Positions 2,301 through 64,000 of a stretch of 64,000 nt of DNA are shown in pieces. The notes beneath the pieces were generated by a model. It was given only the letters and a program-made list of their open reading frames with translations. It searched no databases and was not told the DNA's origin. The position numbers and the translations under genes are program-made. Within the stretch, counting starts at the first letter, position 1. Each line of letters starts with the position of its first letter. The stretch spans positions 372,001-436,000 of the forward strand of contig JARGXX010000138.1 of assembly GCA_030374765.1 (NCBI GenBank), written 5' to 3'. Source of the DNA: Agarophyton chilense. Lineage: Eukaryota; Rhodophyta; Florideophyceae; Gracilariales; Gracilariaceae.

Positions 2301-3196
2301 AAGCTCATCATCAGATATGCCATCACTGCCGCGTTTCTCAAGGGATATACGCAGTGTGCCATGGACCGAGGGTGAAGGGAATCAGGAGCAGTATGCAACT
2401 GCAGTGCCACAGTGAACGGATTTCCATAACCTACTGCCCGATTCAAACAACAACAACATCCCTCAGAAGTTTAGAGAGATTGTGTTGCAGTCACAGCTCT
2501 TTGATAGAGTCCGCGATCTATGTTGATCGATTTCGGAGGATTTCATCAAATCGAAGAAAGGAGTCTCTGCCATTGTGAATTTCATCCACAAACAAGATCC
2601 CTTTGCAGCAGTTATAGACGTTTATTAAGATCTGCCGAAAATGATGACTATAAAGCGTCATCAGAACGAGTCATTGAGGAACTTCGAGTCCAGGTTTCAG
2701 GCTCAAATATCAAGGTTGCTTTCACACGGAACAGAAACGCAGTTGTCGGATTCGTTGGTTTTTTTCATTCTCCTGGCTAACTCAAACGTGGAGAACAATG
2801 AAAGATTGTCTGTCTTGGCGAAGTGGTTGGGGGAAATGTTACCCAGCACTGAGACATACTGCACATGAATACAAATGTGTTGCAGCTTCCATGTGATAGT
2901 AGCGGTGTCTCACAGGGTACGATATCTCTAGTCGACCATGATTTCCACAGCTACATCCGCGATGGAGCGTTAACATTTCGAGCACAGCCGATGAATGATC
3001 AGAGTGTAGGGAAATTGTACTGCTCTATGGCCTACGTTTCTGATTCTGACGTCCCTCGACCTTGTAATGAACTCAGAAAGATAGTTGACAAGGTCTACAA
3101 ACATGTTTGTGGACATTCTACGTATTCAAACATCAGAGTTTTGCTGGAACGAAATGATATATGGAGCGATGAAGTTGACAAGAACCTTGCTCGTAC
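2290..3196 (+). pseudogene. Copia-1 Gag and integrase N-terminal remnants
   Basis: The opening residues align with Copia-2 Gag (PWTEGEGNQEQY against PWTDGKGDQEEY). From about 2865 the sequence jumps to the integrase zinc-binding region, with HVCGH preserved. Fossil; broken. Confidence 0.75.
3192..3196. repeat. Copia-2 target-site duplication
   Basis: CGTAC here and again at 8277-8281, a perfect 5-bp duplication inside the Copia-1 integrase region. Confidence 0.9.
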
Positions 3197-3464
3197 TGAA
3201 AGAGTTATGGACACTCTACTGTTCAGTGTCGACCTTGTCGAAGAGGTAGAGCGTGCAAATTGCTAGAGTGTAGTCGTTGTACACTATCGGTGTGAGTACC
3301 GTGGTTTACAATTCATAATCATGAAGGTCTAAATACACAAAGTCATAACATATAAACGGCCGTAATTAACAACGAACATATTCATCAAACTGAATCAAAG
3401 ATACAAATTCAAATACCAAGCGGGCGCATCCAAAAGCAACCAACCAGAACCGAATAGTTCTATA
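3197..3464 (-). repeat. Copia-2 3' LTR
   Basis: 268 bp, matching 8009-8276 with no difference seen. In element orientation it starts TATAGAAC and ends CTTTCA, an unusual TA...CA rather than TG...CA ending. Confidence 0.92.
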
Positions 3465-3477
3465 CTCCTCCCTTTTC
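3465..3477 (-). promoter_or_regulatory. Copia-2 polypurine tract
   Basis: On the minus strand GAAAAGGGAGGAG abuts the 3' LTR and overlaps the end of the Gag-Pol frame. This is the expected plus-strand priming site. Confidence 0.8.
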
Positions 3478-6400
3478 ACCCAAAGTTTTTCTCAGAGTGT
3501 TTTGTCTCCGAGATCTTGTCAAAGTCGAAACAAAGTTTTCCAGTAAACAAAGTTAACTGAAGTGCATCAGTCAGCGCGCTGTCCTTCTTCGTCAGAGGAT
3601 CAGCCAGATTAGAATGTCCAGGAACCCAAGAGATCTTATCCACAGCACCAGTCTGAAATTCGTAGCGAACACATGCAACATCACCGCGGATAGACTTGTC
3701 GATGGAATTCTTTTGTGTGGATAGTGAAGTAAAGAGATCTTTGGAGTCAACAGCCAAACGCAACTTGATTTCCTTCCCAAGTAGCTCGGTGTAGGCGTTA
3801 GAAATAGTCTTACCTTCATCAATGCCCTCAGAAGCGGCGAGGATTTCCGCAGCTGGAACACTCTTAACAGGACGCTTCGATTTGTGGGACATCCACGAGA
3901 TGGCATGGTAGATGGACTGATTCTTCATTTCACCAACCAACAAACCAGTGAGCACACCAAGTTGTCCGCATTCGTCCGTCCTGGAAGCATCAGAAAAAAC
4001 CAACACGCTCAGTTCGTGCTGTCTATTATCCGTCGGTATCGGATAAGCAATGGTTGTCCCAAGCTTCTTAAGCTTACGAACAATATTTATCTGTTCAACC
4101 AAATGACAAACCTTAAGTTCCGGTGCTTTCTGCTGCAAGTAGCTTGCATAGAATGAGCAGAATGGTGAAGCTGCAGTCCCAATCCAACCAAGCGAGCTGT
4201 TGGTTGAGGCAAACACGGATTTCTCGATCTTGTTCAGAGATTGATCGAACTGCTTGCGACGTTGCCTAGTGAATGGATATTCTACGACTGCATCCAACTT
4301 GTCATCTGCATCCGTCTCAATTGTCATGTCACCATTTTGCACCGTGTTGATACCAAAGAACCGAAGCTTTCCTGGACCCTTCATGACATCGCCAAACTTG
4401 AAACGCTTGTCGAACTCTTTCATGAAATGATTCACCCGATCTCCTTTTCCGGCAGCTTTCAGGTCATCAACAATTTTTGCCACAATTAACACCAATTTTC
4501 CGTTTTCTTTCTGAAAGAACAGCTGTGGCACATGCACTGATTGCGTGAGTCCAATGTCAAACATAACTTGATCAGACTGACTCTGCCATTTGGCATTTGC
4601 ATTGACGAGGCCATACGCAGCTGTGAGTAGTAACCAAAGATGAGTAGCCTTCATGTGACTTTCCTTCGGAGGGCGAACATATACATCCCTCTGAGCCTCC
4701 CCGGTCTGCAGGAATGCCGCTTTTACGTCAGCTCTATAGATGTTCCATTCGTATAGAGACGCAATTGACTCAAGGATACGTAGTCCTGTGGGCGGGCACG
4801 TTGTGCAATCTTTGCTCAAGGCATTCTTCAAGTCATCTTCATTACCATGTGGTGCTATGCGAGCTTTCAGCTTAAGCGAGCCATCATCATTGGTCTTAAC
4901 CTTGTACAATGTGTGGCTGTTAATGATGTTGGCGTTAGGCGGGACTTGATTATGCGAAACAGGGCGCACAGTCTTGAGAAAAGTCTCCTCCTCCTTCTTG
5001 TAGGCGTTCACCAAGGGAAATTGGTCAAAACCCTGGGCATGATGTCTAAGGAACGGCTTGTTCCCAAAGTGATCAAGCATCGATGAGAGAACAGAAGTCT
5101 CAGTGCTTGTTACCTGTAGCTCAGGTTGCGTAGAACTAGAACTGGCCGCGAATGTCTCATTGTTGAACTTCCATACTTCGTTCGAAATATCCAAAGTTTC
5201 AGTGTCTCCGTCATCATAGTGAATGTTCAAACGTCCATCTTCCTCCTCAGAGTGAACAGTACCCGGATAGAACTGATCTTCGAGAGGCCAGAACACTGAG
5301 ATGTTGTCACCGACAGATGGTTCAACGTTTGCAGACTCAGTGGAAAAATCATCATCAACAGGTTTGATGTCTTCAGACGACGACACTGGAGTATCAGAGC
5401 CAGTTGCAGCATGTCCGGTGAGGTCAAATGAACTCTCCTCATTCGACTCATCAATAGAGTCGATACCTTCTTGCACTAGTTGTGCAAAGCTCTCTTGAGG
5501 TAGGGCTTTACGGGTGTCCTCGAAAGCAACTGTAACTTGTTTGCCTTTGCGTCCAGGTACAGTCACTGAGCGAGCACTGCGGTCAACGGAGAGAATTGGC
5601 TTGGCAATAGACCATTTTCCTCTCTTCTCGTGGTCTTTCTTATGATATACTTCGACCATGTCGCTGACAGCGATAGGTGGTTCAGAGACCGCCTTCGAGC
5701 GCAAGATGAGCGCTAGCTTCCTGCGAGCGTGAAGTTGATCGCGAGCAGTGCGAACATCATCGGGTACAGTCGTATCAGTGGGCTTTGCCACAACGGGACA
5801 TGTAAACCCTTTGGCCAGTTCGAATGCAGACATTGTGTCATTCCCGTACAAGTCATTCGAAATGGAGACAGACTTGTATGCTCCAAGCATAGGATCAAAG
5901 TCCTGTCCAGCAGCTTCTTTCAAGCGGAGAAAGACACTGCGTATGATATTGTGCTTCGACTCGATGGCATTCTTAGAGTGCCTGCCAGGAGGCACTGGCT
6001 GAACTGGAATCCCAAGGTTGTCGATGTAGTCTTTAAACACACCGACTTGAAAGGCTTTGTCTGCCCGAATAGACTCAGGATACCAGAACTGGGAAACCCA
6101 AGCTGCTTCGAATCCAACAATAGCTTCTTTGAGGTTTGTCGATGACACCGCATGAACACATGAGTACCTCGTGATTAGATCCATTAGATGCATAAGCAAT
6201 ATTTCATCCAAGTGCAAGTGGTCAACGCACAGAACCTCGTTGAAATTCTTGGATAGTGAGCTGATAGATACCTTGCGGCTCGGTTGCGGAACTGCTGTTG
6301 AACGACAAGCAGAACAACGATTGACCATTTGTGTAACATAAGATGCAACCGTGTCATTCCAAAATCCGTTTCTTTCTAGAAGAAGCTTGTAGTCGGTAAG

Positions 6401-8005
6401 GCTAGCATGTCCGCACACATGCTTGTGTACCTTGTCAATGATTCTCTTTACCTCAGGCCATGGTTTCGAATTGACAGTTACAGCTGAAAGGCATGAAAGC
6501 ACAGAGCTCTTACTGCAGTTACCAGTAAAGCGATTGAGCTCGACGTAGCTCAAAAAATCACGGTTGACGAGAGAAATAGATTCCCTTGTACCATTTGCAA
6601 GAAAGACCAGAGCATTTATTCCGATGTGCTCAATGTTGGCCTTGCTGGTCACATTCCTTCCTATGACCCACTGAGATGAACCGTCTAATACCAAATGCTT
6701 GATTTCGATCAGAGACCCTTGGTCTGATCTGGATGTCAAAACAATGGAGCCTAAAATGCGGCGTGCTGGACTAGCATGATCTCCTGTCCCATACTGCCAA
6801 TGGGTGTGTCCATTGAGCGTGTCGGGAATGGGCCCTAAGGTGGGGTTTGTTGGCATTCCAAGATGTTCACCCAACAGGCCAAGTTCAACTGAGCCAATTC
6901 CAGCATATGGCGCTCCATCATCAAGAAGAGGTCCTAGTTCAACAGTTGGCATATTTGTAGTAGCAGAGGAACTGCAGAGACGGTTTGTGGTCACACTATA
7001 ATGTGGAGCGGCTGGAGATGTTGCCGTGCTAGACGTAACAAGCTTTAGAGTCGTTGCCATATTGAATCGAACCGTCTTTGTATGCGATTTGTCATCTGTG
7101 TCACGTCTTGAGCTTTCGTGATACCTAGATCGCGAGGACCTCAAGCCATTGGCTCCTGATCTTTGGGGTCTGTCAAAAGACTTGCAATGTGAGGGAAGTG
7201 ATCCATCAGCATTGTGGTTGCGTTTCCAATGTCCGTACTTACCGCACAGATCACATGGATACTTCATTGTAGGAGATTGTCCCTTTTGATTGAACCGGTG
7301 TCGCTCATGACGAGTTGTACCACCAGAGCTGGCCGATAAGGTTCCATACTCTTGCGCTGGATGCGAAGTCTTGTCGCATTGCTTGATTACAGAGGCTACA
7401 GACTGATACGTGATGGCACTTAAAAACTGTTCGTTAGAAGACTGTAAATTTAGGTTTTCGTCCGACGGTGCAGCACCAGCCATGACAGACACACGCTGAG
7501 AGTCATCAATTGCAGAATTAGACAGTAGCATCAAAGCTGCAATACATTCCGGTAGTTTAGTTGTCGTGGAAATAGAGTTGAATCTTGCAACCTGTGCAGA
7601 AAAACGAGACTCAAAATTCTTCATGGTCTCGGTATTACCACGTCTTGTATTCCAGAGTTGGTTAAAGTCACGATACGCCTCACTCACCACAGAAAGAGCG
7701 TCTTTCTGATAAATTTTGCCAACTATAACATTGACGGCACCTTCAGTAACCAACTCAGCCTCTGAAATTCCGGAGCAGAGGTCTTTAGCACGCCCGTACA
7801 GCTGGGACTTAAGACAAATTGCTTGCAGAGTAGCTGGGATCTTGTGACTGTTTGAGGCGGGCAGTGCGTTGTGAAATGTCTGCCAAAGATTGACAGCATC
7901 ACGATATTCTTCTTGATCACCTTTGCCATCTGTCCATGGCGGGGACTTGGCATCCCAGGAGAACTTAGGCCTGGAAGGCAAATTGGAATTGGGCGCTGGG
8001 CCCAT
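3476..8005 (-). CDS. Copia-2 Gag-Pol polyprotein
   Basis: A single frame of about 1,509 residues. Rough domain order: Gag (1-240); a zinc knuckle near 250 (CDLCGKYGHW); an aspartic protease with a DGS active-site loop near 438; integrase with an HHCC zinc finger (HVCGH near 530, CSAC near 565) and its DDE core from about 597; reverse transcriptase with KAAFLQTG near 1097 and IVDD near 1178; RNase H from about 1335. The order protease-integrase-RT-RNase H is diagnostic of Ty1/copia. The ATG at 8005 is chosen because it lies in the primer-binding site and aligns with the Gag starts of Copia-1 and Copia-3; the frame opens slightly further upstream in the LTR without an ATG. Gag and Pol share one frame with no visible shift site, so the Gag to Pol ratio must be set in another way. 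Confidence 0.93.
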   Translation of the reverse strand: MGPAPNSNLPSRPKFSWDAKSPPWTDGKGDQEEYRDAVNLWQTFHNALPASNSHKIPATLQAICLKSQLYGRAKDLCSGISEAELVTEGAVNVIVGKIYQKDALSVVSEAYRDFNQLWNTRRGNTETMKNFESRFSAQVARFNSISTTTKLPECIAALMLLSNSAIDDSQRVSVMAGAAPSDENLNLQSSNEQFLSAITYQSVASVIKQCDKTSHPAQEYGTLSASSGGTTRHERHRFNQKGQSPTMKYPCDLCGKYGHWKRNHNADGSLPSHCKSFDRPQRSGANGLRSSRSRYHESSRRDTDDKSHTKTVRFNMATTLKLVTSSTATSPAAPHYSVTTNRLCSSSATTNMPTVELGPLLDDGAPYAGIGSVELGLLGEHLGMPTNPTLGPIPDTLNGHTHWQYGTGDHASPARRILGSIVLTSRSDQGSLIEIKHLVLDGSSQWVIGRNVTSKANIEHIGINALVFLANGTRESISLVNRDFLSYVELNRFTGNCSKSSVLSCLSAVTVNSKPWPEVKRIIDKVHKHVCGHASLTDYKLLLERNGFWNDTVASYVTQMVNRCSACRSTAVPQPSRKVSISSLSKNFNEVLCVDHLHLDEILLMHLMDLITRYSCVHAVSSTNLKEAIVGFEAAWVSQFWYPESIRADKAFQVGVFKDYIDNLGIPVQPVPPGRHSKNAIESKHNIIRSVFLRLKEAAGQDFDPMLGAYKSVSISNDLYGNDTMSAFELAKGFTCPVVAKPTDTTVPDDVRTARDQLHARRKLALILRSKAVSEPPIAVSDMVEVYHKKDHEKRGKWSIAKPILSVDRSARSVTVPGRKGKQVTVAFEDTRKALPQESFAQLVQEGIDSIDESNEESSFDLTGHAATGSDTPVSSSEDIKPVDDDFSTESANVEPSVGDNISVFWPLEDQFYPGTVHSEEEDGRLNIHYDDGDTETLDISNEVWKFNNETFAASSSSTQPELQVTSTETSVLSSMLDHFGNKPFLRHHAQGFDQFPLVNAYKKEEETFLKTVRPVSHNQVPPNANIINSHTLYKVKTNDDGSLKLKARIAPHGNEDDLKNALSKDCTTCPPTGLRILESIASLYEWNIYRADVKAAFLQTGEAQRDVYVRPPKESHMKATHLWLLLTAAYGLVNANAKWQSQSDQVMFDIGLTQSVHVPQLFFQKENGKLVLIVAKIVDDLKAAGKGDRVNHFMKEFDKRFKFGDVMKGPGKLRFFGINTVQNGDMTIETDADDKLDAVVEYPFTRQRRKQFDQSLNKIEKSVFASTNSSLGWIGTAASPFCSFYASYLQQKAPELKVCHLVEQINIVRKLKKLGTTIAYPIPTDNRQHELSVLVFSDASRTDECGQLGVLTGLLVGEMKNQSIYHAISWMSHKSKRPVKSVPAAEILAASEGIDEGKTISNAYTELLGKEIKLRLAVDSKDLFTSLSTQKNSIDKSIRGDVACVRYEFQTGAVDKISWVPGHSNLADPLTKKDSALTDALQLTLFTGKLCFDFDKISETKHSEKNFG

Positions 8006-8008
8006 AAC
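7990..8008 (-). promoter_or_regulatory. Copia-2 primer-binding site overlapping the Gag start codon
   Basis: In element orientation GTTATGGGCCCAGC follows the 5' LTR. This matches, base for base over 14 positions, the complement of the anticodon arm of eukaryotic initiator tRNA-Met, as used by Drosophila copia. The ATG within it is the first codon of Gag-Pol. Confidence 0.88.
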
Positions 8009-8276
8009 TGAAAGAGTTATGGACACTCTACTGTTCAGTGTCGACCTTGTCGAAGAGGTAGAGCGTGCAAATTGCTAGAGTGTAGTCGTTGTACACTATC
8101 GGTGTGAGTACCGTGGTTTACAATTCATAATCATGAAGGTCTAAATACACAAAGTCATAACATATAAACGGCCGTAATTAACAACGAACATATTCATCAA
8201 ACTGAATCAAAGATACAAATTCAAATACCAAGCGGGCGCATCCAAAAGCAACCAACCAGAACCGAATAGTTCTATA
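8009..8276 (-). repeat. Copia-2 5' LTR
   Basis: 268 bp, apparently identical to 3197-3464, followed by the target duplication CGTAC at 8277-8281. It should contain the element's promoter. Confidence 0.92.
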
Positions 8277-8283
8277 CGTACAC

Positions 8284-9151: not shown

Positions 9152-10038
9152 TGAAGGACAATGCCCTTCAAGGGGGGTTTCTTCGCACGAATTAGAAGTT
9201 TCGCTCGCTCGAGGAATAGCTTGGGCTATGACAAACTATACTGCTATGGCGTGCCGACGGCCGGTTAGGACCGGAAGGGCACACTGGTGGAGCACGTGGA
9301 CTGCACGGATGCCAACGCTCGAGTACGAGGCGTGCCACACGTGGCCCGGACTGCACCAAATGGTTAGTATTATTTAGTAATTTTTAGTATTTATTTAGCT
9401 ACGCTATCGCTATTTAGTGTCTATTTTTCGGGCGCGCGCTTACTGTCAGGGGCCGCGCGCTACACTACATAGGAGGTTGAGCACTGCTCCCCAGTAAACA
9501 CCCTCTTGGGATCCCAAGGAGGGAGTCTTGGCTCTGAACTTTTCGCCTTTGGCGCGTCTTCACCGCATACCGCGTGAGCGCCCGTTGCACGTTTGTTCAT
9601 CCTTTCCTATGTCGACCAGAGTGCTACCACCACTGTGGGTTCATATTTAATCGCCGACACTTGTCGTAGTCTCGCCTCTGTATAGGGTTTCGCCCCCGTT
9701 TTCCTCTTGTTCTCCTTTTTGCCTCTCGTGAGTGGCCGCACCACTCACCCCGCTCGTCCACCTCATACGAGTGTTTCCTCGCTCCTTTTCCGACAATCTC
9801 CGTGGTACCGCTTCGCTTAGGACTGGTCACACCCCGGACTGTGCCGTGCTCACCTAAACACTCTAGGTATATCCCGCCGGATTGGCCTCGGTCTTACACC
9901 CGACTCCGTCGTGCCTTTCCAGAGTGGCTCTGTTTCTGTGCTCTGCTGGGACGCGTCTCCTCCGCCTGAGGCGTGTCTCTCAAGAGAGGAAGATCCCGAA
10001 CATCTTCGTGGTATCTACGCTCCAAGCGTTGTCCTACA
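9152..10038 (+). repeat. Gypsy-1 5' LTR
   Basis: 887 bp, beginning TGAAGGACAATGCCC and ending GTTGTCCTACA. An AT-rich patch of repeated TTTAGTA motifs lies near 9360-9420. A TGG at 10042 just inside could begin the tRNA primer-binding site; I cannot assign the tRNA. Confidence 0.92.
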
Positions 10039-17039: not shown

Positions 17040-17285
17040 AATAGCGACACCGTCATACGGGATGGCCGGGAAGTGTACCGACAAGAGTTCGTGGTCGGAC
17101 GCATTCTGGAGCACTCCTACCACCCAAAGGGGTATCTCCAATACTTGGTCGGTTGGTACGGGTACGGCCCCGAATGGGATTCAGACGAACCGATAGAGCA
17201 CCTACCTGGGTCAAAGGTGGTACAGTATCATCGTCGTACTGTCACAGCTTTGCTGGCTACCATAGACCGAGCCCAAGTGGGATAA
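17040..17285 (+). pseudogene. Gypsy-1 chromodomain at the end of Pol
   Basis: Residues read VGRILEHSYHP, LQYLVGWYGYGPEWDSDEP and IEHLPG, the aromatic-cage layout of a chromodomain. Chromovirus integrases use such modules to steer insertion towards marked chromatin. A similar module ends Gypsy-2 Pol. Between the integrase core and this point (about 16240-17040) lies a low-complexity Pro/Ser/Thr/Arg-rich linker. Confidence 0.8.
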
Positions 17286-17413: not shown

Positions 17414-19408
17414 TCAAAGACGGAAGCAGTTTACTATTTTCGAAGTTGCTGCACACACTACCGCACAGCGGGACATACTAACCAAGATCACAAGGGACTT
17501 GTTGGAAGAACCCGGATTGCCATGCGCGCCACCTGAATCGCTAGAAGGGTTACTCCCGCCAGCCAGGCGTGCCGCTAAGGCGTCTCTCATCGCACCGATG
17601 TCGCCGCTCGCCGCTTGCGCGTTCAGTCCAACACGCCGAAGGAACTGGGAGATCGCGACCGCCTCTGGGCGTATGGGAACCTCGATAGCTTCCGGTTCGT
17701 CCGGCAACGCCGCCGCCACTAGATTTACCACCGCACCTGCGTGAGTCGCTCCCTGCGCCGGCCGCGCCGTAGTATCGGCTCCATAGGGGTCTCCCACGTC
17801 TTCCATGACCTCGTCGCCACGGTATTCGCCCGACTCCTCCGGGAGATCACCGCCATAGGCGTAGTAGAAGTCATCCGAGTTGGCAAACCCCACGGGGTTC
17901 CCGTATGGTATGCCTCGCAGAGCCATCCGGAGTGCCGACGCCTCCGCCTCAGAGATCTCTTGCTGCTCCCATGGGTTAAAGAAGATGAAATCTCCCGCCA
18001 ACGGCGTGCGTCGCCCCGGAGACCGATCAGCCCCACCGGCTTCTTGACCACGGCCGCTCCGCCGGACAGGCACGACAGCCCAGTCGACACGCCCAATTAT
18101 GTCGATGAGCTCCTGAGCTTCATCAGCGTTATTGACACCTCCAAGAGAGAGTTGAAGGTCCAGCTGCCGGATGTAACCACGCAAACGCGGAGGAAGATAC
18201 CACAGTCGATACTGGTCGTAGGCTTCCCACAAGATGTACGCCGCGGCGCGGACTGCCCATTCGGTTAGAGCCACGGACCATAAGCCGGAGTGCGGATCCT
18301 CGATGAGGTACGAGCCCAGATAGCAGACGACTGGAGGCAACTCCACGTAACATCCCCGGCACACCTCGACGGAATACCACCACCCAGGCAGGGGAACGTA
18401 TCGCACGAACTGGTAGAAGGGACTAATCCGGTTTATCTCCGTGTTCTGATAAGAGACAAGGAACCCAAAGCGGGATCTGCCCCGACGCTCCTCGCGGACG
18501 AAGTTCTGTAACCACCGATATCGGGACTCACGACGAAGGTGACGGAACTCGGCACGAAGGATCGGACGGACCCAGCAGATCGCTTCTTGACGCGCTCGCG
18601 GTTGACCGCGCCGTGCGTAAGATTCCAACGCCGCAAAGCGCTCACAATAGCCGATCTCACCCTGAGTCCGGTACATCCGTCGGTCGTAGCCGAATTCGTC
18701 GGGGATGGGGTATTGAAAGTTTTCCCGGTCGATCCGTGAATAGCCGATGCGGACGAAGGTACAATGCGCCTCTTCCGCCGACTCGCGCCTTCGCCGCAGA
18801 ATCGTGTGAATGGGAACCGCCACACGGAATCGCCAGTCCCACGAAGTGGTGATCAAAGCCGGCAGCTCGCCCGGAAGACGCGCATTTTCATCAGCATACG
18901 ACGCCAAGAGTTCTTCGTCGAAGACCGCTGTCGGATGGAACCACGGAGCTCTCCGGAGAATCGCCGCATGTTGACGCGGGTTAAACCCGATGAGTTCGTC
19001 GTAACTGGGCCAGGCGCCCTCCGCAGGAGTGATGTGGCTTGAAGCTTCGACGGAACCCCGGGATCGGCTCGGCGCGGTTGAGGAGGCACTCCCCCGCGGA
19101 AGGGGGGCCGAATGGAAACCGGAGAAGTAACCGCGGCGGGGATTGTCACCACCGTTCCTCGGGAGTGCTGGTCGCCGAGGTATCGGGATTTGGTCGCTGG
19201 AAATTGGCGTACGATGCGGAAGAGCGCTCGAAGTTCGAGGAGTGGTTACCGCGTTGGTGCGTTTGTCTTTCGGTTGTGAAGCTCTGCCTTCGACAGTCGA
19301 GTGGTCGCTGGACGCGTTACGCGGCTCGCTCTTATGCCGGTTGGACCGTTGCCTCCCCGCTATTTCGACGGCGTGTTCGTCACCTAGGGAGAGGGATATG
19401 AAGGACAA
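17414..19408 (-). CDS. Antisense gene of Gypsy-1, unknown protein family
   Basis: A frame of about 660 residues on the strand opposite to gag-pol, filling the gap between chromodomain and 3' LTR. The exact start is uncertain. After roughly 110 residues of Ser/Pro/Arg-rich sequence comes a core very rich in Trp, Tyr and Arg: APWFHP, SWDWRFR, YQNTEI, LPGWWYS, AYDQYRLWYLPPR. The tail is acidic and Gly/Ala-rich, with FLRRVG and GDIGAMRDALAARL. I see no signal peptide, membrane segment, zinc finger or known catalytic motif. The Gypsy-2 gene at 57984-59760 aligns along nearly all of the core, and the Gypsy-3 fragment shares one block, so it is a conserved protein rather than a chance frame. It is presumably expressed by antisense transcription from the 3' LTR. 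Function unknown. Confidence 0.8.
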   Translation of the reverse strand: MSFISLSLGDEHAVEIAGRQRSNRHKSEPRNASSDHSTVEGRASQPKDKRTNAVTTPRTSSALPHRTPISSDQIPIPRRPALPRNGGDNPRRGYFSGFHSAPLPRGSASSTAPSRSRGSVEASSHITPAEGAWPSYDELIGFNPRQHAAILRRAPWFHPTAVFDEELLASYADENARLPGELPALITTSWDWRFRVAVPIHTILRRRRESAEEAHCTFVRIGYSRIDRENFQYPIPDEFGYDRRMYRTQGEIGYCERFAALESYARRGQPRARQEAICWVRPILRAEFRHLRRESRYRWLQNFVREERRGRSRFGFLVSYQNTEINRISPFYQFVRYVPLPGWWYSVEVCRGCYVELPPVVCYLGSYLIEDPHSGLWSVALTEWAVRAAAYILWEAYDQYRLWYLPPRLRGYIRQLDLQLSLGGVNNADEAQELIDIIGRVDWAVVPVRRSGRGQEAGGADRSPGRRTPLAGDFIFFNPWEQQEISEAEASALRMALRGIPYGNPVGFANSDDFYYAYGGDLPEESGEYRGDEVMEDVGDPYGADTTARPAQGATHAGAVVNLVAAALPDEPEAIEVPIRPEAVAISQFLRRVGLNAQAASGDIGAMRDALAARLAGGSNPSSDSGGAHGNPGSSNKSLVILVSMSRCAVVCAATSKIVNCFRL
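19386..19398 (+). promoter_or_regulatory. Gypsy-1 polypurine tract
   Basis: AGGGAGAGGGATA directly precedes the 3' LTR. The equivalent in Gypsy-2 ends in the same GGGATA, and the antisense gene begins at the same junction. Confidence 0.8.
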
Positions 19409-20285
19409 TGCCCTTCAAGGGGGGTTTCTTCGCAGGACTTAGAAGTTTCGCTCGCTCGAGGAATAACTTGGGCTATGACAAACTATATCGCTATGGCGTG
19501 CTGACGGCCGGTTAGGACCGGAAGGTCACACTGGTGGAGCATGTAGACTGCACGGATGCCAACGCTCGAGTACGAGGCGTGCCACACGTGGCCCGGACTG
19601 CACCAAATGGTTAGTATTATTTAGTAATTTTTAGTATTTATTTAGCTACGCTATCGCTATTTAGTGTCTATTTTTCGGGCGCGCGCTTACTGTCAGGGGC
19701 CGCGCGCTACACTACATAGGAGGTTGAGCACTGCTCCCCAGTAAACACCCTCTTGGGATCCCAAGGAGGGAGTCTTGGCTCTGAACTTTTCGCCTTTGGC
19801 GCGTCTTCACCGCATACCGCGTGAGCGCCCGTTGCACGTTTGTTCATCCTCTCCTATGTCGACCTGAGAGCTACCACCACCGTGGGTTCATATTTAATCG
19901 CCGATACTTGTCGTTGTCTCGCCCCTGTATAGGGTTTCGCCCCCGTTCTCCTCTTGTTCTCCTTTTTGCCTCTCGTGAGTGGCCACACCACTCACCCCGC
20001 TCGTCCACCTCATACGAGTGTTTCCTCGCTCCTTTTCAGACAATCGCCATGGTACCGCTCCGCTTAGGACTGGTCACACCCCGGACTGTGCCGTGCTCAC
20101 CTAAACACTCTAGGTATATCCCGCCGGATTGGCCTCGGTCTTACACCCGACTTCGTCGTGCCTTTCCAGAGTGGCTCTGTTTCTGTGCTCCGCTGAGACG
20201 CGTCTCCGCCGCCTGAGGCGTGTCTCTCAAGAGAGGAAGATCTCGAACATCTTCGTGGTATCTCCGCTCCTAGCGTTGTCCTACA
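19399..20285 (+). repeat. Gypsy-1 3' LTR
   Basis: 887 bp, the partner of 9152-10038, followed by the target duplication GAAAT. Read in reverse it is the likely promoter region of the antisense gene. Confidence 0.92.
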
Positions 20286-22349: not shown

Positions 22350-22561
22350 TGTGAATATTGTGAGTTTGGTTACAGTCCGAACTATTTGCGCACAATATAT
22401 TTGAACAAGGTTCAAATATAGGGAACCGTTCTAAAGGCTGGAAGGTAGAACTAGCTAGACTACAAGTAGCGCACGAGCTAGAGTTCGTAGAGCTCTACAG
22501 CGGGAGGGACCGAGGAAGGAACAAAGAAGACCAAGGCCAGAAGTAACGCTTAACATTCTTA
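22350..22561 (+). repeat. Copia-1 3' LTR
   Basis: 212 bp, the partner of 2075-2286, preceded by the purine-rich AAAGTGGAAAG and followed by the target duplication ATTAC. Confidence 0.9.
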
Positions 22562-22566
22562 ATTAC

Positions 22567-22898
22567 AGTCCCCGAAAAACGAAACGCAACAAAAAAGGAA
22601 TTGCAGTCCACCGCGACGCAAGTTCCTCTATCACGTTACAAACACTATTAAATAAAGGCACACCATTGTTTTACAAAGTGTCGTCATAGTTCTGTGCAAC
22701 TCCCCGCGGCAATATTGGCACCCGCGTGTGCCATTGAAGTCGGCGACAAAAAGAACTCGAAAAACCAACGCGCACAAACCATTGGCTTAAACAATGATGC
22801 CAAACGCAATGACCTTTTAAACCCAAACATAAGGGCGACAGTTCCACTATTTCAGTCTCTCCGAGTGCGCAGTCTACACCAGATTATACTTGTTCAGC
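22567..22898. other. Intergenic DNA between Copia-1 and a Tc1 remnant
   Basis: No gene or repeat recognised. It may include the lost 5' end of the Tc1 element that follows, but no terminal inverted repeat can be seen. Confidence 0.35.
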
Positions 22899-26063: not shown

Positions 26064-26241
26064 TACCGCCGGCGCTGCAAACTAAACCTCACCCTTGCTC
26101 CACTTCGAGACACTGAGGACAGAGGAGCAAGGAGGGACACCTTGGGCCCGTTCCATCTTTCTCGGTTCCACCGCGCGTTACAAGCGCATACTATACATTA
26201 GACCGACAGCCCTTTCGCTCTTCGTACGACTGCCTCCCATA
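26064..26241 (+). repeat. Copia-3 5' LTR
   Basis: About 178 bp that recurs at 41810-42001 with scattered differences. Its right end (CTCCCATA) is followed at once by GTTATGGGTCCAGC, the copia-type primer-binding site, which fixes the boundary. The left boundary is set by where the two copies stop matching. Confidence 0.65.
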
Positions 26242-41809: not shown

Positions 41810-42001
41810 TGCCGCCGGCGCCGCATACTCAACCTCACCCTTGCTCCACCTCGAGACACTGAGCACAGAGAAACAAGGGGGGGCTCCTTGGGCCTGTTCC
41901 ATCTTCCTCGGTTCCACCGCGCGTTACAAGGCATACTAGACATTAGACAGACAGCCCTCTCGCTCTCCGTACGACTGCTTCCCGTACGACTGCTTCCCAT
42001 A
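41810..42001 (+). repeat. Copia-3-type LTR fragment (probable solo LTR)
   Basis: 192 bp matching 26064-26241, beginning TGCCGCCGGCG and ending CTTCCCATA. A 15-bp local duplication (CGTACGACTGCTTCC) near the right end makes it longer. No primer-binding site or coding sequence follows, and no clean target duplication is visible. Confidence 0.6.
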
Positions 42002-55819: not shown

Positions 55820-56486
55820 TGTAGTATCCGCTCTAACGGAGAGAGCAGACACCTACGACAGCGTTCAGATTGCCGATGGGTCGCTTGCGGCGAAGGAAAA
55901 GGGGTGGTAGAGCTACAACACCAGCGAGCTGGAAGTGGGGTGTAAGGCCACTACTCGCCAGCGAGGGTGAACAGTGCAACTGTAAAACGTTGATGGGACG
56001 TAGGTACGAGACGGCTCGTGAAGTGGTTGCGGGCCGACTATCTATTAAAGCTCGTCCGGATCTCCGGTTAAGGAATCCTGAGCGAGGAACAGAATAGTCA
56101 TGATGCCCATGTTGTCTCCTTTACTTGTAATTGGCGCTCACCTCTGGTACACTATATACTGTATGCCAGGGTGAGTGCCCAAATAAATATATAAATAGTA
56201 CCCAGTGGTCAGCCACTTAGCCGAACCACTTTATGGGTACGGTCCCTAGTGGACGTATAGCTATAAAGGGTAGTAAAACCAGCCACGTGGATCGCCACTA
56301 CACGCGCCGTTGCAAGCCATTCCACTCGTGATACCACGTGTTCCAACAATGTACCCTGACTCCTGGCATCCTACGCGGTGTTCCGTTTCATATCACAATG
56401 CTGATGATATCACTCACTGGTGAGTTCCAACCACGACATTGCGAAAAACCAGCATATCGGATTCCCCGACATAGTAGAATACTACA
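55820..56486 (-). repeat. Gypsy-3 3' LTR
   Basis: 667 bp with terminal inverted ends TGTAGTA...TACTACA. It is bounded on the left by Gypsy-4 coding sequence (candidate target duplication AAATC at 55815-55819) and on the right by a polypurine tract on the minus strand (56487-56499). No second copy lies in the window, so the ends rest on these signals. Confidence 0.7.
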
Positions 56487-56510: not shown

Positions 56511-57073
56511 ATGGGGGACGCGAGAAGCGTTTATACGCAGTCGGACCGGTGTTCCGGGTACTCATCTTCATCACGAATTCCTCGCCGCCCGACCAACTCT
56601 TGCAGTTCTCAACAGCATTCTGTTCCTCACCGCTCTTCAGCTCGATCTCTCGCGATGGATCCGAACGCCGGGTCCAATCCGTTTCAGCCCTTCTCTGAGG
56701 ATGCGCCTTCTGGGGCTCCGTCAAACACTGCTGGTTCTGTGTTGCAGCCTACTGCTCAACTCGGTCCATACCGTTCATTCCCCACCCCGTACACCGGATT
56801 GCGGCCGGTACCGCTACCTCAGCCAACCGTGGCTCCGATGCCGAACGCGGCTTACGTCGCCTCTGCGGGTGTAATTCGAGCTCCTTCTGGTCGTGTTTAG
56901 CGAAGCTACCCGCACCCTGCGGCTTTCTATGGACGAGATCCTCTCGAGAACGTTGAACTTTTCGCGCAAGCGCCCTGGTTTGATCCAGTTGCTATCCGCG
57001 ATGACGCGTTGATACAACAGTATGTACACGGTGGGTACTTCCCTGACGGGATTCCGGAACACGCGATTTATAG
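56511..57073 (+). pseudogene. Antisense gene of Gypsy-3, 5' part
   Basis: The gene begins with an ATG 25 bp inside the LTR junction and opens with a Ser/Pro/Arg-rich leader, as in Gypsy-1 and -2. Further in, the block FAQAPWFDPVAIRDDALIQQY (about 56960-57022) aligns with APWFHPLAVRDEDLIQSY of Gypsy-2 and APWFHPTAVFDEELLASY of Gypsy-1. Gypsy-2 cuts it off at 57074. Broken. Confidence 0.65.
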
Positions 57074-57936
57074 TGTAGGACAATGCCTCCAAGGGGGAAA
57101 ACCTACGAAGACGTCCGGATCTTCCTCTCACGAGGTAACCGGCGCGGTAGAGCCCTCCGAGGGATCGGCGTGCAATGCCGGGTGTAAGCCGGAGCCGAAC
57201 CGTCGCGACGGGCGCAGGGAGGCTGAAAGAAGCCGAGAATATCCGCCGAAGCGGTGCTTGCGTATCCTCTGAGGAGGCAAAACCCACGAGAGTGGCGAGC
57301 ACGACAGGTGTCAGTGCGAGCCGCAAGAGCGGGAATTGCCCAATGAAACGGAGGAAAAAGGAAGGAAATGGGAACGTAGGCAAGAGGGCGAGGTTGACCA
57401 CGAGTCGCAAGAGGGGACTCGGGAATAGCCGGCACTGCCGGGTGTAGCAAACCGTATACACGGGCGGAACCACGAAAGTGGGAATAGGTACCCAACACAC
57501 GAAGGCGGCTTGAACGTCGAAGGGGGTTGGGAAGCCGTGCACCACGGGAAATCCCTCCGTAAGGAGTTGTATATCCGCGCAGGCGGTTCGACCCAGAGCC
57601 AAGATCTGGAAGACCAAGATCACCCTTGTTGGGCAGACTTTACTGGACCAGCGGCCGCGAGGCCGGCGGCCTAAGTACTGTAGTCACCGTAGAATACAAT
57701 AAATAAAGTCTATCCTAAATAGCTAAATGTCCGTCTAACAAAAGGGGCCAATCTGGCGGCCACGTGTCGCGCGGGCGCTGCGGCCACGTGTATGTCACCT
57801 GGTCCCGCCGGTGCATCACCGGCGTTCCGGCCATCGCCGTGAAACGGCTTACTCCTACTCATAACGAGGTTGCACGCCGGAGGCTCCGGAAAAAACTTAA
57901 GTCCCCAAAAACCTCTCGGGAGGACGTTGCTCTTCA
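57074..57936 (-). repeat. Gypsy-2 3' LTR
   Basis: 863 bp. In element orientation it starts TGAAGAGCAACG and ends GCATTGTCCTACA, matching the LTR ends of Gypsy-1. Bounded on the right by the polypurine tract and on the left by Gypsy-3 sequence. Long open frames crossing it on either strand are not genes. Confidence 0.82.
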
Positions 57937-57948
57937 TATCCCCCCCCT
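57937..57948 (-). promoter_or_regulatory. Gypsy-2 polypurine tract
   Basis: On the minus strand AAGGGGGGGATA abuts the LTR start TGAAGA. It lies in the leader of the antisense gene, 36 bp before its ATG. Confidence 0.8.
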
Positions 57949-57983
57949 TAAGACAGGGCGAACACCTCGAAGAGGAAGTCGGC

Positions 57984-59760
57984 ATGGCAGCTCGTCATGA
58001 TAAGAGCGCGTCCGACACCGGGTCTCCGGAAACCAACACACCTTCACCAAGGATCCCACGCACGCTCTCCGCATCCGATTCCAACCACAGCACTCCAACA
58101 CGCACCATGTCCAACCCCAACCGTCATTACACATCCGCGACTCCCGCCCTTGGCGGTTCCACCGGCTTCCGGTCCGCGGCCCACCCTGGGGATGTTACCA
58201 ACCTCGCGTACGAAGACCGCCGTATTGGCGCCCGCTTTCGCGGACAGGCGGACCCACCGCAGTGGCCGACCTACGACGCCCTTGTGGGTGCGAATCCGAG
58301 AACTCGGCATGGCTCCGCGAGATTGCGGTATGCGCCTTGGTTTCACCCATTGGCTGTCCGCGACGAGGATTTGATCCAATCCTACACCGATAATTCGGAG
58401 ATGCTCTCGGGCGACCTGCCCGGCGTGGTGACCCTGTCCTGGGATTGGCGTAATCGTATCGCCATCCCGGTACACCACATACTCCGCCGACGTGGTGAAT
58501 CCTCTGCGGAGGCTCAAGCCGCGCTTGTGCGGATCGCTTATCTCAGGCACCATCGGGCGCCTTTCGAGGTCCCGATACCGCCAGAGGTCGAATTCGACGT
58601 CCACCTTTACCGCACTCGCGGGGAAATGTCGTACTGTGACCGTCTTAACGGATTGGAAACCCTCGCTTGGAGGGGCACACCGATCGCTGGGCAAGAAGCC
58701 CTTTGCTGGGCACGACCGATTCTTTGGGCAGAGTTCCGCTACCAACCGCGGCAGTCGCGCTCGAACTTCCTTCAGAACTTCATCCGCGATGAGCGGCGTT
58801 GGCAGGCCCGGACCGGGTACTTCGTACCGTACCAGAACACGGAGATTGAGTGCATCGCGCCTGCTCACCGACGTGGTCGGTACGTCAGTCTCCCAGACTG
58901 GTGGTCCTCCTTGGAGGCGTGCTGGGGTTCCTTCATTGAGCTGCCCCCAGTATTCACCTATGTAGGGTCGTCGTTCTTGAACGATCCCCAGTCGGGGTGG
59001 TGGTCCGTCGTGGTAAGCGAATGGGCCGTCCGCACTGCGGCTTTTATCTTCGCTGAGGCGTACGACCAATACCGATTGTGGTACGTGCCACCGCGTGTGC
59101 GGGATGCGATCCGTCGTTTGGACATGCGCATCCCCCTCGGGGGCGAGGCGAACGAAGAAGAGATGCTGGGCCTCCTCGACTTTGTGGAGGGGGTCCAGTG
59201 GGATGAGGTCCCGTTGGATAACTCCCAACGCATTCAACCGCGTCGCGGGTCTGGCCCCGGACTCGGGAGGAATACCGCGCTAGCGGAGGATTTCGTCTAC
59301 TTCGACCCCTGGGAGTACCACGAGATCAGCCGAGAGGAAGCGGAAGCCAACCGGCATGCGCCGCGTGAAGTCCCGGCCGACCACCCGCGAGGGTATGTCG
59401 ACTCGAGCGACTATTACCGCGACTATGCGGATGGTGACCCGATGGTCGACAACGAACCGGAGGATCCCGGTTACGCTCCGATGGAGGATGACGGGTCCGG
59501 CGAGGCCGGTTAGGAGTCCGTTGAATACGGTGGTGCGGCTCCATCCGGGGCTGCTGATGCCGCGCGAACGGATTCCTATCCGACTCCATCGGTGGCGGGC
59601 CCGCCCGCAACCGTCGCTGGCGCGGAGCGGGGCGAGGTCATCGCGCGCTTCCTTCGGGAGGTGGGGCTTCGCCCTTCCGAGATCTCGGGTGATGTGGCCG
59701 CCATGCGGGATGTCTGAGCCAACCGCCTGGGCGGGGGTCCACCTCGTGCGGAGGAATGAC
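57984..59760 (+). CDS. Antisense gene of Gypsy-2, unknown protein family
   Basis: The best example of the family. The ATG at 57984 lies 48 bp inside the LTR junction, on the strand opposite to pol. A Ser/Thr/Pro-rich leader of about 100 residues precedes the core: WPTYDALVGANPR, YAPWFHPLAVRDEDL, SWDWRNRIAIPVHHILRRR, GQEALCWARPILWAEFR, YQNTEIECIAP, WAVRTAAFIFAEAYDQYRLW, IPLGGEANEEEM and DFVYFDPWEYHEISREEAE. An acidic tail ends with a block (FLREVG, GDVAAMRD) shared with Gypsy-1. Trp, Tyr and Arg are strikingly frequent. No transmembrane segment or signal peptide is visible, so it is not envelope-like. I know of no matching family. It is probably expressed from an antisense promoter in the LTR. 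The copy is nearly whole. Confidence 0.82.
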
Positions 59761-60091: not shown

Positions 60092-62305
60092 TTATCCCTC
60101 TTGGGCGTTTACCAGCGTGGCTGGGAGTGCGGTCCCCGCAAGGCGGTGGTATCGCATTACCGCAGAGCGCGGGAGGTGCTCGATGGGCTCCGGGGTGTCC
60201 CACTCTGGCCCGTATCCGTACCAGCGGGTCCGGTACTGGAGCACCCCGTGCCCATCGTAGCTGTGTCCGACGATTCGGTCGAGGACGTACTCCTGCACGT
60301 AAACTTGCCGGCCTTGCCGGGTGGTGGTGACCCGAGCCTCAGCGCCGCGTGGTGCTGGGCTCGTCGTCGCCTGTTCCGGATCACCCGGTTTGTCATTCCG
60401 CTCTGCGGTTGTTGCCGGGTTGCCGGGGCTGCCGTACCGTTTCGCGGAAGTTGCCGGCGCGGCCGGGTTGTGTTCCCGCTGGGCGGTAGGGGCTTCCCTG
60501 AAGTCCGCTCTTACCGCGAGTTTGCGGGGGTCCTTCCGTCTTGGTGACGGTTCACCGGAGGCCTCCGCTTGATTTGTGGCATGCCGCGTTCCCATTGGTG
60601 GGCAGTTTCCGCCGTGCAGTGCGCCGCGGGCGGTGAGTGGTTCACCGTCCAGGCGGTCCGCCTCCGCGGGGTGGCTGTCAGCCAATGACCGGGATGCCGG
60701 GTGCCCATTGGTCCGATCTCCCGCCCGGGTCACATGACCTTGAGGACGGGTGGTCGGGCCGTCGCGGACGGTTGGCTCCGATTGTTCGGCAAGGGAGGCG
60801 GTTTTAGACTTGTTGTCGCGCCCCTTTTCCCCCATGGGGTTCGTACCGTTCTCAACGGAGTGGCTCGCTAAACCTGCTTGCGCAGCGCCCGCCGGAGTAC
60901 CGGTACCGACCGAAACGCTCGGTGTGCGACCGCGAATGTGCAGGGAGCCCTCGGTTGCTTCCACGCGATGCGGAGCGTCCGTAGGGTCTCGCTTCCCGGC
61001 TTCGGGTCTTCGAGCGCCTTGGTTCCCCTTTCGGGGTTGCGTGGCGGTCGGGTTGACCGCTGCGTCCCGCGGGAGCGGATTGGCGTCCGGCGACGATGCC
61101 GGTTGCCCGCTCGGGGGCCTTGCCCGGGGTGTCCGGTTAAACTTCCGCTGCGACGGCGATGCTTCCGCGATTGAGCGGGTCCCCTCCCCCTCCTTAGACG
61201 GAGTGACGGGTGATGGTGGGCTAACCGCATGGCGGGTATAAATACCGCTGCGTGGCGCCCGTAAGGGTAGCTGGCCGCGACGGCCAGGTGTTTCCGGCAT
61301 TGCCGGTGGTTCCGATAGAGTCGGTATATCGGAGAGACCCCGTGAGGGGTGCGGTACCACGGCGGGGCGTGGTGCCACCGTTGTACCCGTGGTATACGAG
61401 GCCGTTTCGACGGGGGCTGATGCGTTTTCTGCCTGCGGCGGTGGGGCGGCTACGATGCGGTCTTGTGAAAGACGTTCGTGGTCGCCGTTCTTGTCCACCA
61501 CAACGGTGCCGGGGAGGGAGGACACGACCCGGAACGGACCTTCAGCGACAGGCGAGAGCTTGTGACGCTTGTCGGTCCGGGGGTTGTAGTACTCCCGGCG
61601 AACGAACACGTAGGTTCCCGGCTTGGGCGGTGCCGGTAGTGGTCCGCGTAAGCGGTTATCAAAATCCCGCTTGTAGGCGGCCTGGGCACGTTCCATAGAC
61701 TTCCGGGCGACCGGTACGAGCTTGGTAATCCAATTCTTCCACTTGAGGCGGTATTGACCCACGGATGGGAAAGAGTTGACCCTGTGTTGGGGTTCGACCG
61801 CCACTGGCGGGGGTGTCCTGGAGAGCACAAGCTCGAAGGGAGTCAGACCGGTTCTCCGGTGAACCTGCGTGTTGTAGGCGTAGGTTATAGCATCAGAATA
61901 AATGTCCCACGTCATTGGGTGATCGGATACGTAGGAGCGTAGCGACGCGAGTAGGGTGCGGTTGAAGCGTTCCACCTGCCCGTTTGTTTGCGGGCGGTAG
62001 GTGGTAGTAAACAGGTTCTTGACGTCGAGGATGCGGCAGACGTCCTGGAAGAACTTAGAGGCGAACTGCTTACCGTTATCGGATAGAACCTCTATCGGAG
62101 GGCCATAAACGAACGCCCAGTGCGTAACGAAGGCGTTCGCAACCGTGAAAGCGGTGATCTTCCGTAAAGGTACGGTGCGCACCAGCTTCGAAAAGCGGTC
62201 AGTGATAACCAAGAGGAACTTGTTTCCCTTGCGCGTCTTGAGTAGAGGCCCGAGAATGTCGATTGCGACAAACTCGAGGGGCGCCCTTGTGGGGAAAAGC
62301 TTCAT
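60092..62305 (-). CDS. Gypsy-2 integrase core, linker and chromodomain
   Basis: 737 residues. The DDE integrase core is at about 1-190 (AIDILGPLL, VLSDNGKQF, RPQTNGQVERFNRTLL), followed by a GPY/F-like segment (YVFRREYYNP, HKLSPVAEGPFRV). A long low-complexity linker (about 290-650) is rich in Pro, Ser, Thr, Arg and Gly. The chromodomain ends it (LDRIVGHSYDGHGVLQYRTR, WYGYGPEWDTPEPIEHLP). The chromodomain aligns closely with that of Gypsy-1. Confidence 0.87.
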   Translation of the reverse strand: MKLFPTRAPLEFVAIDILGPLLKTRKGNKFLLVITDRFSKLVRTVPLRKITAFTVANAFVTHWAFVYGPPIEVLSDNGKQFASKFFQDVCRILDVKNLFTTTYRPQTNGQVERFNRTLLASLRSYVSDHPMTWDIYSDAITYAYNTQVHRRTGLTPFELVLSRTPPPVAVEPQHRVNSFPSVGQYRLKWKNWITKLVPVARKSMERAQAAYKRDFDNRLRGPLPAPPKPGTYVFVRREYYNPRTDKRHKLSPVAEGPFRVVSSLPGTVVVDKNGDHERLSQDRIVAAPPPQAENASAPVETASYTTGTTVAPRPAVVPHPSRGLSDIPTLSEPPAMPETPGRRGQLPLRAPRSGIYTRHAVSPPSPVTPSKEGEGTRSIAEASPSQRKFNRTPRARPPSGQPASSPDANPLPRDAAVNPTATQPRKGNQGARRPEAGKRDPTDAPHRVEATEGSLHIRGRTPSVSVGTGTPAGAAQAGLASHSVENGTNPMGEKGRDNKSKTASLAEQSEPTVRDGPTTRPQGHVTRAGDRTNGHPASRSLADSHPAEADRLDGEPLTARGALHGGNCPPMGTRHATNQAEASGEPSPRRKDPRKLAVRADFREAPTAQREHNPAAPATSAKRYGSPGNPATTAERNDKPGDPEQATTSPAPRGAEARVTTTRQGRQVYVQEYVLDRIVGHSYDGHGVLQYRTRWYGYGPEWDTPEPIEHLPRSAVMRYHRLAGTALPATLVNAQEG

Positions 62306-62308
62306 CCG

Positions 62309-64000
62309 TTAGGAGTGCTTCCAAAGTTTCACCCGGTTCTTTGCGCATTGGGTGCAGAACTGCACCGTAGCGTAGCAATCAACCGCCACAGCGGGCCAAT
62401 AAAAGTCCCTTCGCAAAGTTAGATAAAGTTTTCTCCCACCGGAGTGTCCCCCGAGGGTCGGGTAGTGTGAGAGGTGGAGCACCCTGGTTTGCAGGGTGTG
62501 GGGGACCACGATCTGGGATCGGTGGTCCACCGTCCGGACGAGGTAACCGATGTCGTTTACCTCGAACGGGAGGTCCTCTCCACCGTTTAGGCGGGCCCGT
62601 ATGCGCGTGCAGAACGGGTCGCCGAACTGTTCTCGGATCATCTCCTCGGTGGAGATGGGTACAAAAATCCCGGGTACGGGTGTTTCATTCTCGCGCGCTG
62701 CGAGTAGCTCATCCATTTCCATGGTGTCTTCCCCGGTTTCGGGCCAATCCGACTCCGTCGGTGTTTCCCCTTCCAAGGTAAAGCACGGGATCTCGTCGAC
62801 CTCCGGGTCGGCAAGTGCTTCACCTGTCGTAGGTAATCGAGAGAGGGCGTCTGCTTGGGTGTTCTGGACACCCTTTTTGTAGACGACCTCGAAGTCGAAT
62901 TCCGCTAAGCGAAGGCGCCACCGCATTAAGCGGCCAGAAGGATCTGCGATGTTCAGCAGCCACCTCAACGAGGCATGGTCCGTGTACACGCTGAAATGAA
63001 CGCCCATGAGGTATGGGCGCAGAGTGGATAGCGCCCAGACCACTGCGAGGCACTCCTTCTCGGAGACCGAGTAGTTGCGCTCGTGGACGTTCAGCGTGCG
63101 GGACCAATAGCCAATTGGTTTGCGTTCCCCCTCGGTGGTGGTTTGGAACAGTGCGCAGCCCACCTGGTGGTCGCTGGCGTCGGTGTCGATGGAGTAGGGA
63201 AGCCCAGGTTTGGGCAAGGATAGGATGGGAGCTGTCGTAACTGCCTTAATCAAGGAGCGAAAAGATTCCGACTGATCGGTGGTAAATGGCGCAGGCTTCG
63301 GTGGCTGGCCCTTCCGCAGTAGCGCGTTTAGCGGAGAGGCGATATCCGAGAAACTCGGTATAAACCGTCGATAGACGTTGACCAGATCTAAAAAGGATCC
63401 GAGATTTGTTTGAGTACGGGGCTCCTTCGCCTCGCAGAGGGACTTGATACGAACTTGTTCGATCATTAACCGTCCTGGACGGATGACGTGCCCGAGATAC
63501 TTCACCGTGTCGGTGAAGAACTCGCACTTCCTCAACTTGAGGGTTATTCCTGCGTCTCGCAGTACGGTCATCACGTCCCGCACGTGGGTCAGGTGATCGT
63601 CCAGGTTTCTGGAAAAGACAATGATGTCGTCCAAGTAGACAAGGCACGTGCGCCACTTGAAACGCGACATCAGTATGTCTATAGCCCTTTGAAAGGTGGC
63701 CGGTGCATTGGTTAAACCAAACGGCATCCGCTTGAAGCGGTAGGAACCCGAGTGGCAAACAAACGCGGTTTTGTCTCGGTCCTCTTCCCGGACTGGGACT
63801 TGACAGTAGCCCCAGTTAGCATCCAGAGCCGTAAACACGGTAGCGTCCCCGAGCGAGTCTATACACTCGTCCATGCGCGGAATCGGGTAGGTGTCCCTCA
63901 CGATGACGACATTGAGGCGGCGGTAGTCAACGCAAAACCGCCACGTGCCGTCAGCCTTGAGGGCCAGCACCATTGGTGAAGCCCAAGGAGATTGGGCGGG
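62309..64000 (-). CDS. Gypsy-2 RT and RNase H, cut by the window edge
   Basis: RT palm motifs FKRMPFGLTNAPATFQ and YLDDIIVFS (about 63600-63750), RNase H with DTDASDHQVGCALF, SEKECLAVVWAL and a YTDHASLRW block, then the integrase zinc-binding start (HYPTLGGHSGGRK, CTQCAKNRVKLW) near the left end. It continues directly into the integrase core to the left. The remainder, with protease and Gag, lies beyond the window. Confidence 0.87.
   Translation of the reverse strand, partial: PAQSPWASPMVLALKADGTWRFCVDYRRLNVVIVRDTYPIPRMDECIDSLGDATVFTALDANWGYCQVPVREEDRDKTAFVCHSGSYRFKRMPFGLTNAPATFQRAIDILMSRFKWRTCLVYLDDIIVFSRNLDDHLTHVRDVMTVLRDAGITLKLRKCEFFTDTVKYLGHVIRPGRLMIEQVRIKSLCEAKEPRTQTNLGSFLDLVNVYRRFIPSFSDIASPLNALLRKGQPPKPAPFTTDQSESFRSLIKAVTTAPILSLPKPGLPYSIDTDASDHQVGCALFQTTTEGERKPIGYWSRTLNVHERNYSVSEKECLAVVWALSTLRPYLMGVHFSVYTDHASLRWLLNIADPSGRLMRWRLRLAEFDFEVVYKKGVQNTQADALSRLPTTGEALADPEVDEIPCFTLEGETPTESDWPETGEDTMEMDELLAARENETPVPGIFVPISTEEMIREQFGDPFCTRIRARLNGGEDLPFEVNDIGYLVRTVDHRSQIVVPHTLQTRVLHLSHYPTLGGHSGGRKLYLTLRRDFYWPAVAVDCYATVQFCTQCAKNRVKLWKHS

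Follow-up and report, generated by a model that had tools for sequence, protein, structure and literature searches.

Does a long open reading frame that runs antisense to the pol gene of a retrotransposon encode a protein, and if so, what would that protein do for the element? The question is raised by a 64,000-nucleotide stretch of the red alga Agarophyton chilense (contig JARGXX010000138.1, positions 372,001 to 436,000; hereafter the window, to which coordinates refer), which holds two Ty3/gypsy elements, Gypsy-1 and Gypsy-2, that each carry such a frame flanked by the chromodomain and the 3′ long terminal repeat (LTR). Gypsy-2 lies on the minus strand and is opposed by an open plus-strand frame at 57870-59513, with its first ATG at 57984; Gypsy-1 lies on the plus strand and is opposed by an open minus-strand frame at 17414-19408. 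We are confident that this is a real protein-coding gene belonging to the element. On balance, at least three chromovirus lineages probably share it as an accessory gene, which selection has long maintained in antisense orientation in the interval that separates the chromodomain from the 3′ LTR.

An antisense gene conserved between lineages

An original prediction, made from the sequence of the window, had placed a frame of this kind between chromodomain and 3′ LTR in both elements, and this is borne out: the two proteins align by BLASTP over 507 columns at 47% identity (426 bits, E 1e-146), including the motifs that had been named. The Gypsy-2 gene, which represents lineage A, spans 57984..59759 on the plus strand, from the ATG at 57984 to the usual end of its sister copies at 59757-59759. 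This stop, which gives a protein of 591 amino acids from the ATG, is kept in 25 of 30 lineage-A loci. In the window copy itself a TAG at 59511-59513 truncates the acidic tail, so that of the predicted span, 57984..59760, the start holds while the frame does not stay open to the end. The Gypsy-1 gene, which represents lineage B, occupies 17414..19408 on the minus strand. Its sister copies start at the equivalent of 19363 and stop at about 17498, and both signals are lost here: the start codon (codon 15) reads isoleucine where 28/30 B loci have ATG, and the frame reads through a stop found in 28/30 B loci (equivalent of codon 637; 622 amino acids).

The coding evidence comes from comparison of full-length sister copies of lineages A and B (loci L002 and L032), whose proteins are 52% identical over 580 codons. 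Differences between them number 210, 192 and 371 at codon positions one, two and three (p 4e-17); nonsynonymous divergence (dN) is 0.47 and synonymous divergence (dS) is saturated (NG86 estimate about 2.7). The antisense pieces are likewise third-position-biased in the A-C and B-C comparisons with a third lineage, C, described below (p 1e-8 and 3e-10). The three frames of the pol strand contain 3 to 22 stops in each of the two copies. Given the third-position bias, a dN far below the saturated dS, and pol-strand frames broken by stops, the antisense frame is under selection at the protein level. Because the codon-position bias is joined by 296 genome rows across three lineages, the frame is not a product of chance. 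The dN of the integrase is 0.26 and that of the reverse transcriptase 0.22, so the antisense protein is evolving about twice as fast as pol.

Natural copies within each lineage point the same way. Among copies of equal length (27 of 30 loci for lineage A and 21 of 30 for lineage B, those differing in length being excluded), the pooled ratio of nonsynonymous to synonymous differences per site (pN/pS) in the antisense frame is 0.55 for A (351 pairs) and 0.58 for B (210 pairs), in each case the minimum of the six frames. The ratio drops with divergence, from 0.69 in the closest third of pairs to 0.47 in the most distant third for A, and from 0.70 to 0.51 for B. The prediction of a selected accessory gene is thus upheld by ratios well below one both between lineages and in pooled copies, with the reservation, taken up below, that mutations private to single copies are near-neutral.

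Distribution in the genome and relatives elsewhere

The genome (79.8 Mb in 135 contigs) yielded at least 79 rows for the antisense gene of lineage A (of 2154 candidates), at least 67 for lineage B (of 1963) and at least 150 for lineage C (of 1058). Of the 60 loci of lineages A and B, all but L048 and L052 have a chromodomain in the 1.5-kb flank of the gene, and in each of these 58 it is encoded on the other strand. Lineage C was recognised through the insertion of Gypsy-2 into one of its copies. The N-terminal piece of the interrupted C gene, which carries a stop of its own, lies at 56655..57073 on the plus strand, and the remainder is found past the Gypsy-2 5′ LTR (L061 from about 6477) together with a convergent integrase and chromodomain; the nested insertion is bordered by TATAG on both sides. 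Among the 90 integrase rows listed for lineage C, 59 lie within 5 kb of an antisense-gene row, which is always to their 3′ side. The strands are opposite in 58 of these pairs; in the lone same-strand case the gene, 3.2 kb away, is that of an adjacent element. For the remaining 31 integrase rows, the matches listed include no gene nearby, which does not prove its absence.

Three protein searches, with 8000 candidates scored in each, gave 15 relatives (P0001, P0002 and P0004-P0016), which are known from protein sequence and not from their position relative to pol. Three of them carry names, all as hypothetical proteins: BWQ96_03215 and BWQ96_10156 of Gracilariopsis chorda and FGB62_50g12 of Gracilaria domingensis. 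The elements described here supply a context for this protein family, whose named entries are otherwise hypothetical proteins only. In a 21-row tree, built from one C piece and 20 family members (all but the short P0015), lineage A clusters with P0001 of G. chorda and P0002 (98/95), then with P0004 of G. domingensis (99/97). Lineage B falls outside this group despite sharing a genome with A, and lineage C clusters with P0013 (91/91). From this grouping, and assuming vertical inheritance, A and B would have split before the A side came to occupy two genera. The expectation that the frame would be present across the clade agrees with its occurrence in the three lineages examined and with the relatives in G. 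chorda and G. domingensis.

The host elements

From their encoded domains and repeats, both elements can be assigned to the Ty3/gypsy chromoviruses, on the basis of reverse transcriptase, RNase H, integrase, chromodomain, LTRs and purine tract. Gypsy-type reverse transcriptase and RNase H are present in both elements (RVT_1 at 2e-35 and 1e-30, plus RT_RNaseH). In Gypsy-2 the pol segment with reverse transcriptase, RNase H and the zinc-binding part of the integrase lies at 62309..63973 (minus strand), followed by the integrase core and C-terminal chromodomain at 60092..62305 (minus strand), convergent with the antisense gene (rve 1.7e-10, Chromo 2.5e-5). The rve match reaches 41.5 bits in Gypsy-2; in Gypsy-1 it scores 31.9, slightly below the cut-off of 32.6. 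The Chromo match in Gypsy-2, at 24.6 bits, is also slightly below its curated cut-off of 25.1. The Gypsy-1 open reading frames supplied gave no Chromo profile match; the domain was recovered by tblastn with the Gypsy-2 chromodomain at 17049..17282 on the plus strand (L031 1133-1366; 60% over 78 amino acids, 1.2e-25), opposite to the antisense gene.

Two LTRs and a purine tract are found in each element. The Gypsy-2 3′ LTR (57074..57939, minus strand) is an 866-bp BLAST match, 97.7% identical to a 5′ LTR that lies beyond the window at the equivalent of 67605-68471; judged by the CA end, its inner edge is at 57936. It is adjoined by the purine tract at 57937..57949 (minus strand; sense AAGGGGGGGGATA), which falls within the presumed leader of the antisense gene. 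The target-site duplication, examined in Gypsy-2, is TATAG, provided that the end of the 5′ LTR is taken as TA instead of CA. The Gypsy-1 3′ LTR (19399..20285, plus strand, 887 bp) is 96.7% identical to the 5′ LTR at 9152-10038.

A candidate antisense promoter in the 3′ LTR

The ATG of the antisense gene lies about 45-50 nt from the edge of the 3′ LTR in lineage A and about 35 nt in lineage B, with the purine tract between. In lineage C the likely ATG (56655) and the edge, which sequence likeness alone places at 56486, are about 170 nt apart. The LTRs also share a pair of CACGTG motifs. The sites in the window are at 57761 and 57785 (Gypsy-2 3′ LTR), 9293 and 9338 (Gypsy-1 5′ LTR), 19585 (a single site in the Gypsy-1 3′ LTR), and 56284 and 56335; most come in pairs, and their distance from the LTR edge is similar across three diverged lineages. 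At least two CACGTG per LTR are present in 24/30 A loci, where they fall in bins at 150 and 170 nt, counted from the inner edge; in 21/30 B loci the bins are at 140 and 190 nt. In lineage C, the single copy read has its sites at 151 and 202 nt. The chance of two in one LTR is about 0.02, for a motif chosen after the fact.

The closeness of the start codon to the LTR edge in A and B, together with the CACGTG pair in three lineages, makes the 3′ LTR a likely antisense promoter, and LTR-driven transcription of the gene is the better-supported part of the mechanism that we propose. The CACGTG pair is flanked on one side by the antisense start and on the other by an AT-rich candidate for the sense promoter, and it is a fair guess that this part of the LTR is a bidirectional control region.

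Properties of the antisense protein

Profile and structure searches with the antisense proteins gave no significant match in Pfam, PHROGs, NCBIfam or PDB, in keeping with the prediction of an unfamiliar sequence family. The predicted architecture is a compact core with a basic tail at the N-terminus and an acidic one at the C-terminus. AlphaFold2 models the core with a predicted local distance difference test score (pLDDT) of 87.0 and a predicted template modelling score (pTM) of 0.87, and this predicted core has no fold match in BFVD at E 0.001 or less. The core is aromatic-rich, and charged and aromatic residues are invariant or nearly so across 21 members.

Function and alternative explanations

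Several observations weigh against a selected, LTR-driven regulatory gene. Both window copies are damaged at an end. The second-lowest frame in the pN/pS comparison (a reverse frame sharing third positions) is close behind, at 0.62 and 0.70. When mutations are assigned as private or shared by column majority, the copy-private ones are near-neutral (0.86 and 0.89) and the shared ones give 0.72 and 0.61. An in-frame stop is present in 36 of 79 A rows and absent from 43, over 547 searched codons of which 38 precede the ATG. Taken together, the copies have the pattern of a gene that is selected in active lineages and decays after insertion. On the pol strand, the window copy of Gypsy-2 has an open stretch of 397 amino acids (58044-59237). 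With regard to the promoter, CACGTG is not enriched window-wide (20 against 15.2 expected), the pair was noticed post hoc and could serve the sense promoter alone, and AATAAA follows the stop in 6/7 A copies printed and in 0/6 B copies. Finally, no domain or fold match backs a regulatory role.

The pol-strand stretch bears on the possibility that the frame is a by-product of pol-strand constraint or of composition, for which one might also cite the G+C of the region (0.63, which favours long frames) and a reverse frame that is 43% identical between lineages. That frame, however, has 20 and 22 stops and its third positions are common to the antisense frame; the remaining two pol-strand frames are 27% and 22% identical with pN/pS above 1.2 and 3 to 17 stops. 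The 397-residue stretch is not conserved in lineage B, and no conserved open frame exists on that strand, which settles the concern raised with the original prediction. We regard the by-product explanation as refuted. It is also very unlikely that the antisense RNA matters, through double-stranded RNA, silencing or copy-number control, with the protein secondary. The convergent genes would yield overlapping transcripts, and a part for antisense transcripts in such processes is discussed in sections of PMC7264820; the third-position bias and the amino-acid identity confined to one frame nevertheless reflect selection on the protein, which is unexpected for a role of the RNA only.

If the protein itself is what is kept, the likeliest function is regulatory or anti-silencing, although we put this forward tentatively. 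The 3′ LTR would transcribe the gene, and, as a weaker step, its product would be a nuclear accessory factor, acting in trans to adjust the expression, silencing or integration of the element; it may in this way help the element to control its own expression or to evade the host. A structural or particle protein, Gag-like or envelope-like, encoded antisense and serving particle assembly or transfer, is an unlikely alternative to which a long aromatic-rich core, conserved and yet evolving about twofold faster than integrase and reverse transcriptase, would be suited. Neither of the two antisense proteins scanned has a transmembrane-like stretch (top 19-residue hydropathy mean 1.27), the Gypsy-1 Gag bears no similarity to the antisense protein (hhalign probability 0.1), BFVD gave no fold match at the E threshold named above, and a structural protein would normally be made from sense RNA. 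We give the same low weight to the capture of a host gene whose product is an enzyme or interacts with the host, for instance by modifying nucleic acid or chromatin. The compact predicted core and its invariant or nearly invariant charged and aromatic residues would fit such an origin, but there is no significant relative in Pfam, NCBIfam or PDB, and none of the 15 relatives, all known from protein sequence alone and only three of them named, is recognised as a host gene.

Comparison with known antisense genes

Retroviruses offer precedents for an antisense gene at this site, among them ASP of human immunodeficiency virus type 1 (HIV-1). The antisense gene brtn of Boty, an element of Botrytis cinerea, is reportedly the subject of a 2011 paper by Zhao et al., to judge from its title. 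Passages of PMC7264820 refer to brtn as already published, and describe antisense frames of the plant Ty3/gypsy elements Retand, Grande and RIRE2 that, as here, lie between pol and the 3′ LTR. Retand, in contrast, is not a chromovirus lineage, and TRP28 (PF04195) is usual in its protein; 0/21 members of the present family match this domain at E 1 or less. The position of brtn, which belongs to a fungal element, is also similar; among the 15 relatives found here, of which three carry names, none has a fungal name. Of the precedents cited with the original prediction, plant Retand and HBZ of human T-cell leukaemia virus type 1 (HTLV-1) stand, and brtn had been omitted.

In parts of PMC10186651 and PMC3736048, HBZ is described as an antisense gene beside the 3′ LTR that is driven by promoters there. 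The gene described here likewise adjoins the 3′ LTR, whose promoter activity we infer. Unlike HBZ, a basic leucine zipper (bZIP) factor, the antisense protein has no bZIP domain (0/21 members match the Pfam bZIP families at E 1 or less), and no envelope gene was seen in the retrotransposon that carries it. Antisense accessory genes are known in plant elements of the Retand type, in one fungal element and in some retroviruses. The red-algal chromoviruses add a further protein family, one with no detectable TRP28 or bZIP, which suggests that evolution has repeatedly settled on the site next to the 3′ LTR. A bolder and rather doubtful proposal is that the gene is an ancient, vertically kept regulator of unseen fold, part of an HBZ-like circuit driven from a bidirectional chromovirus LTR, which would have arisen independently in red algae, possibly far earlier than its retroviral counterparts, and which would restrain or protect the element in trans. 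Because the copies are many, the lineages number three and the structural model is confident, the function of such genes can be tested directly.

Other elements in the window

A copia element lies at 3195-8277 on the minus strand, with identical 271-bp direct repeats as LTRs (3195-3465 and 8007-8277) and a single frame of 1516 amino acids. Ahead of its reverse transcriptase (RVT_2) this frame encodes a Tudor-like domain (Tudor_3, 4.7e-6, residues 912-948), perhaps a chromatin-reading counterpart of the chromodomain. Two more dispersed repeat pairs, 90% identical, are found at 2075-2302 and 22350-22577 and at 26066-26184 and 41812-41930.
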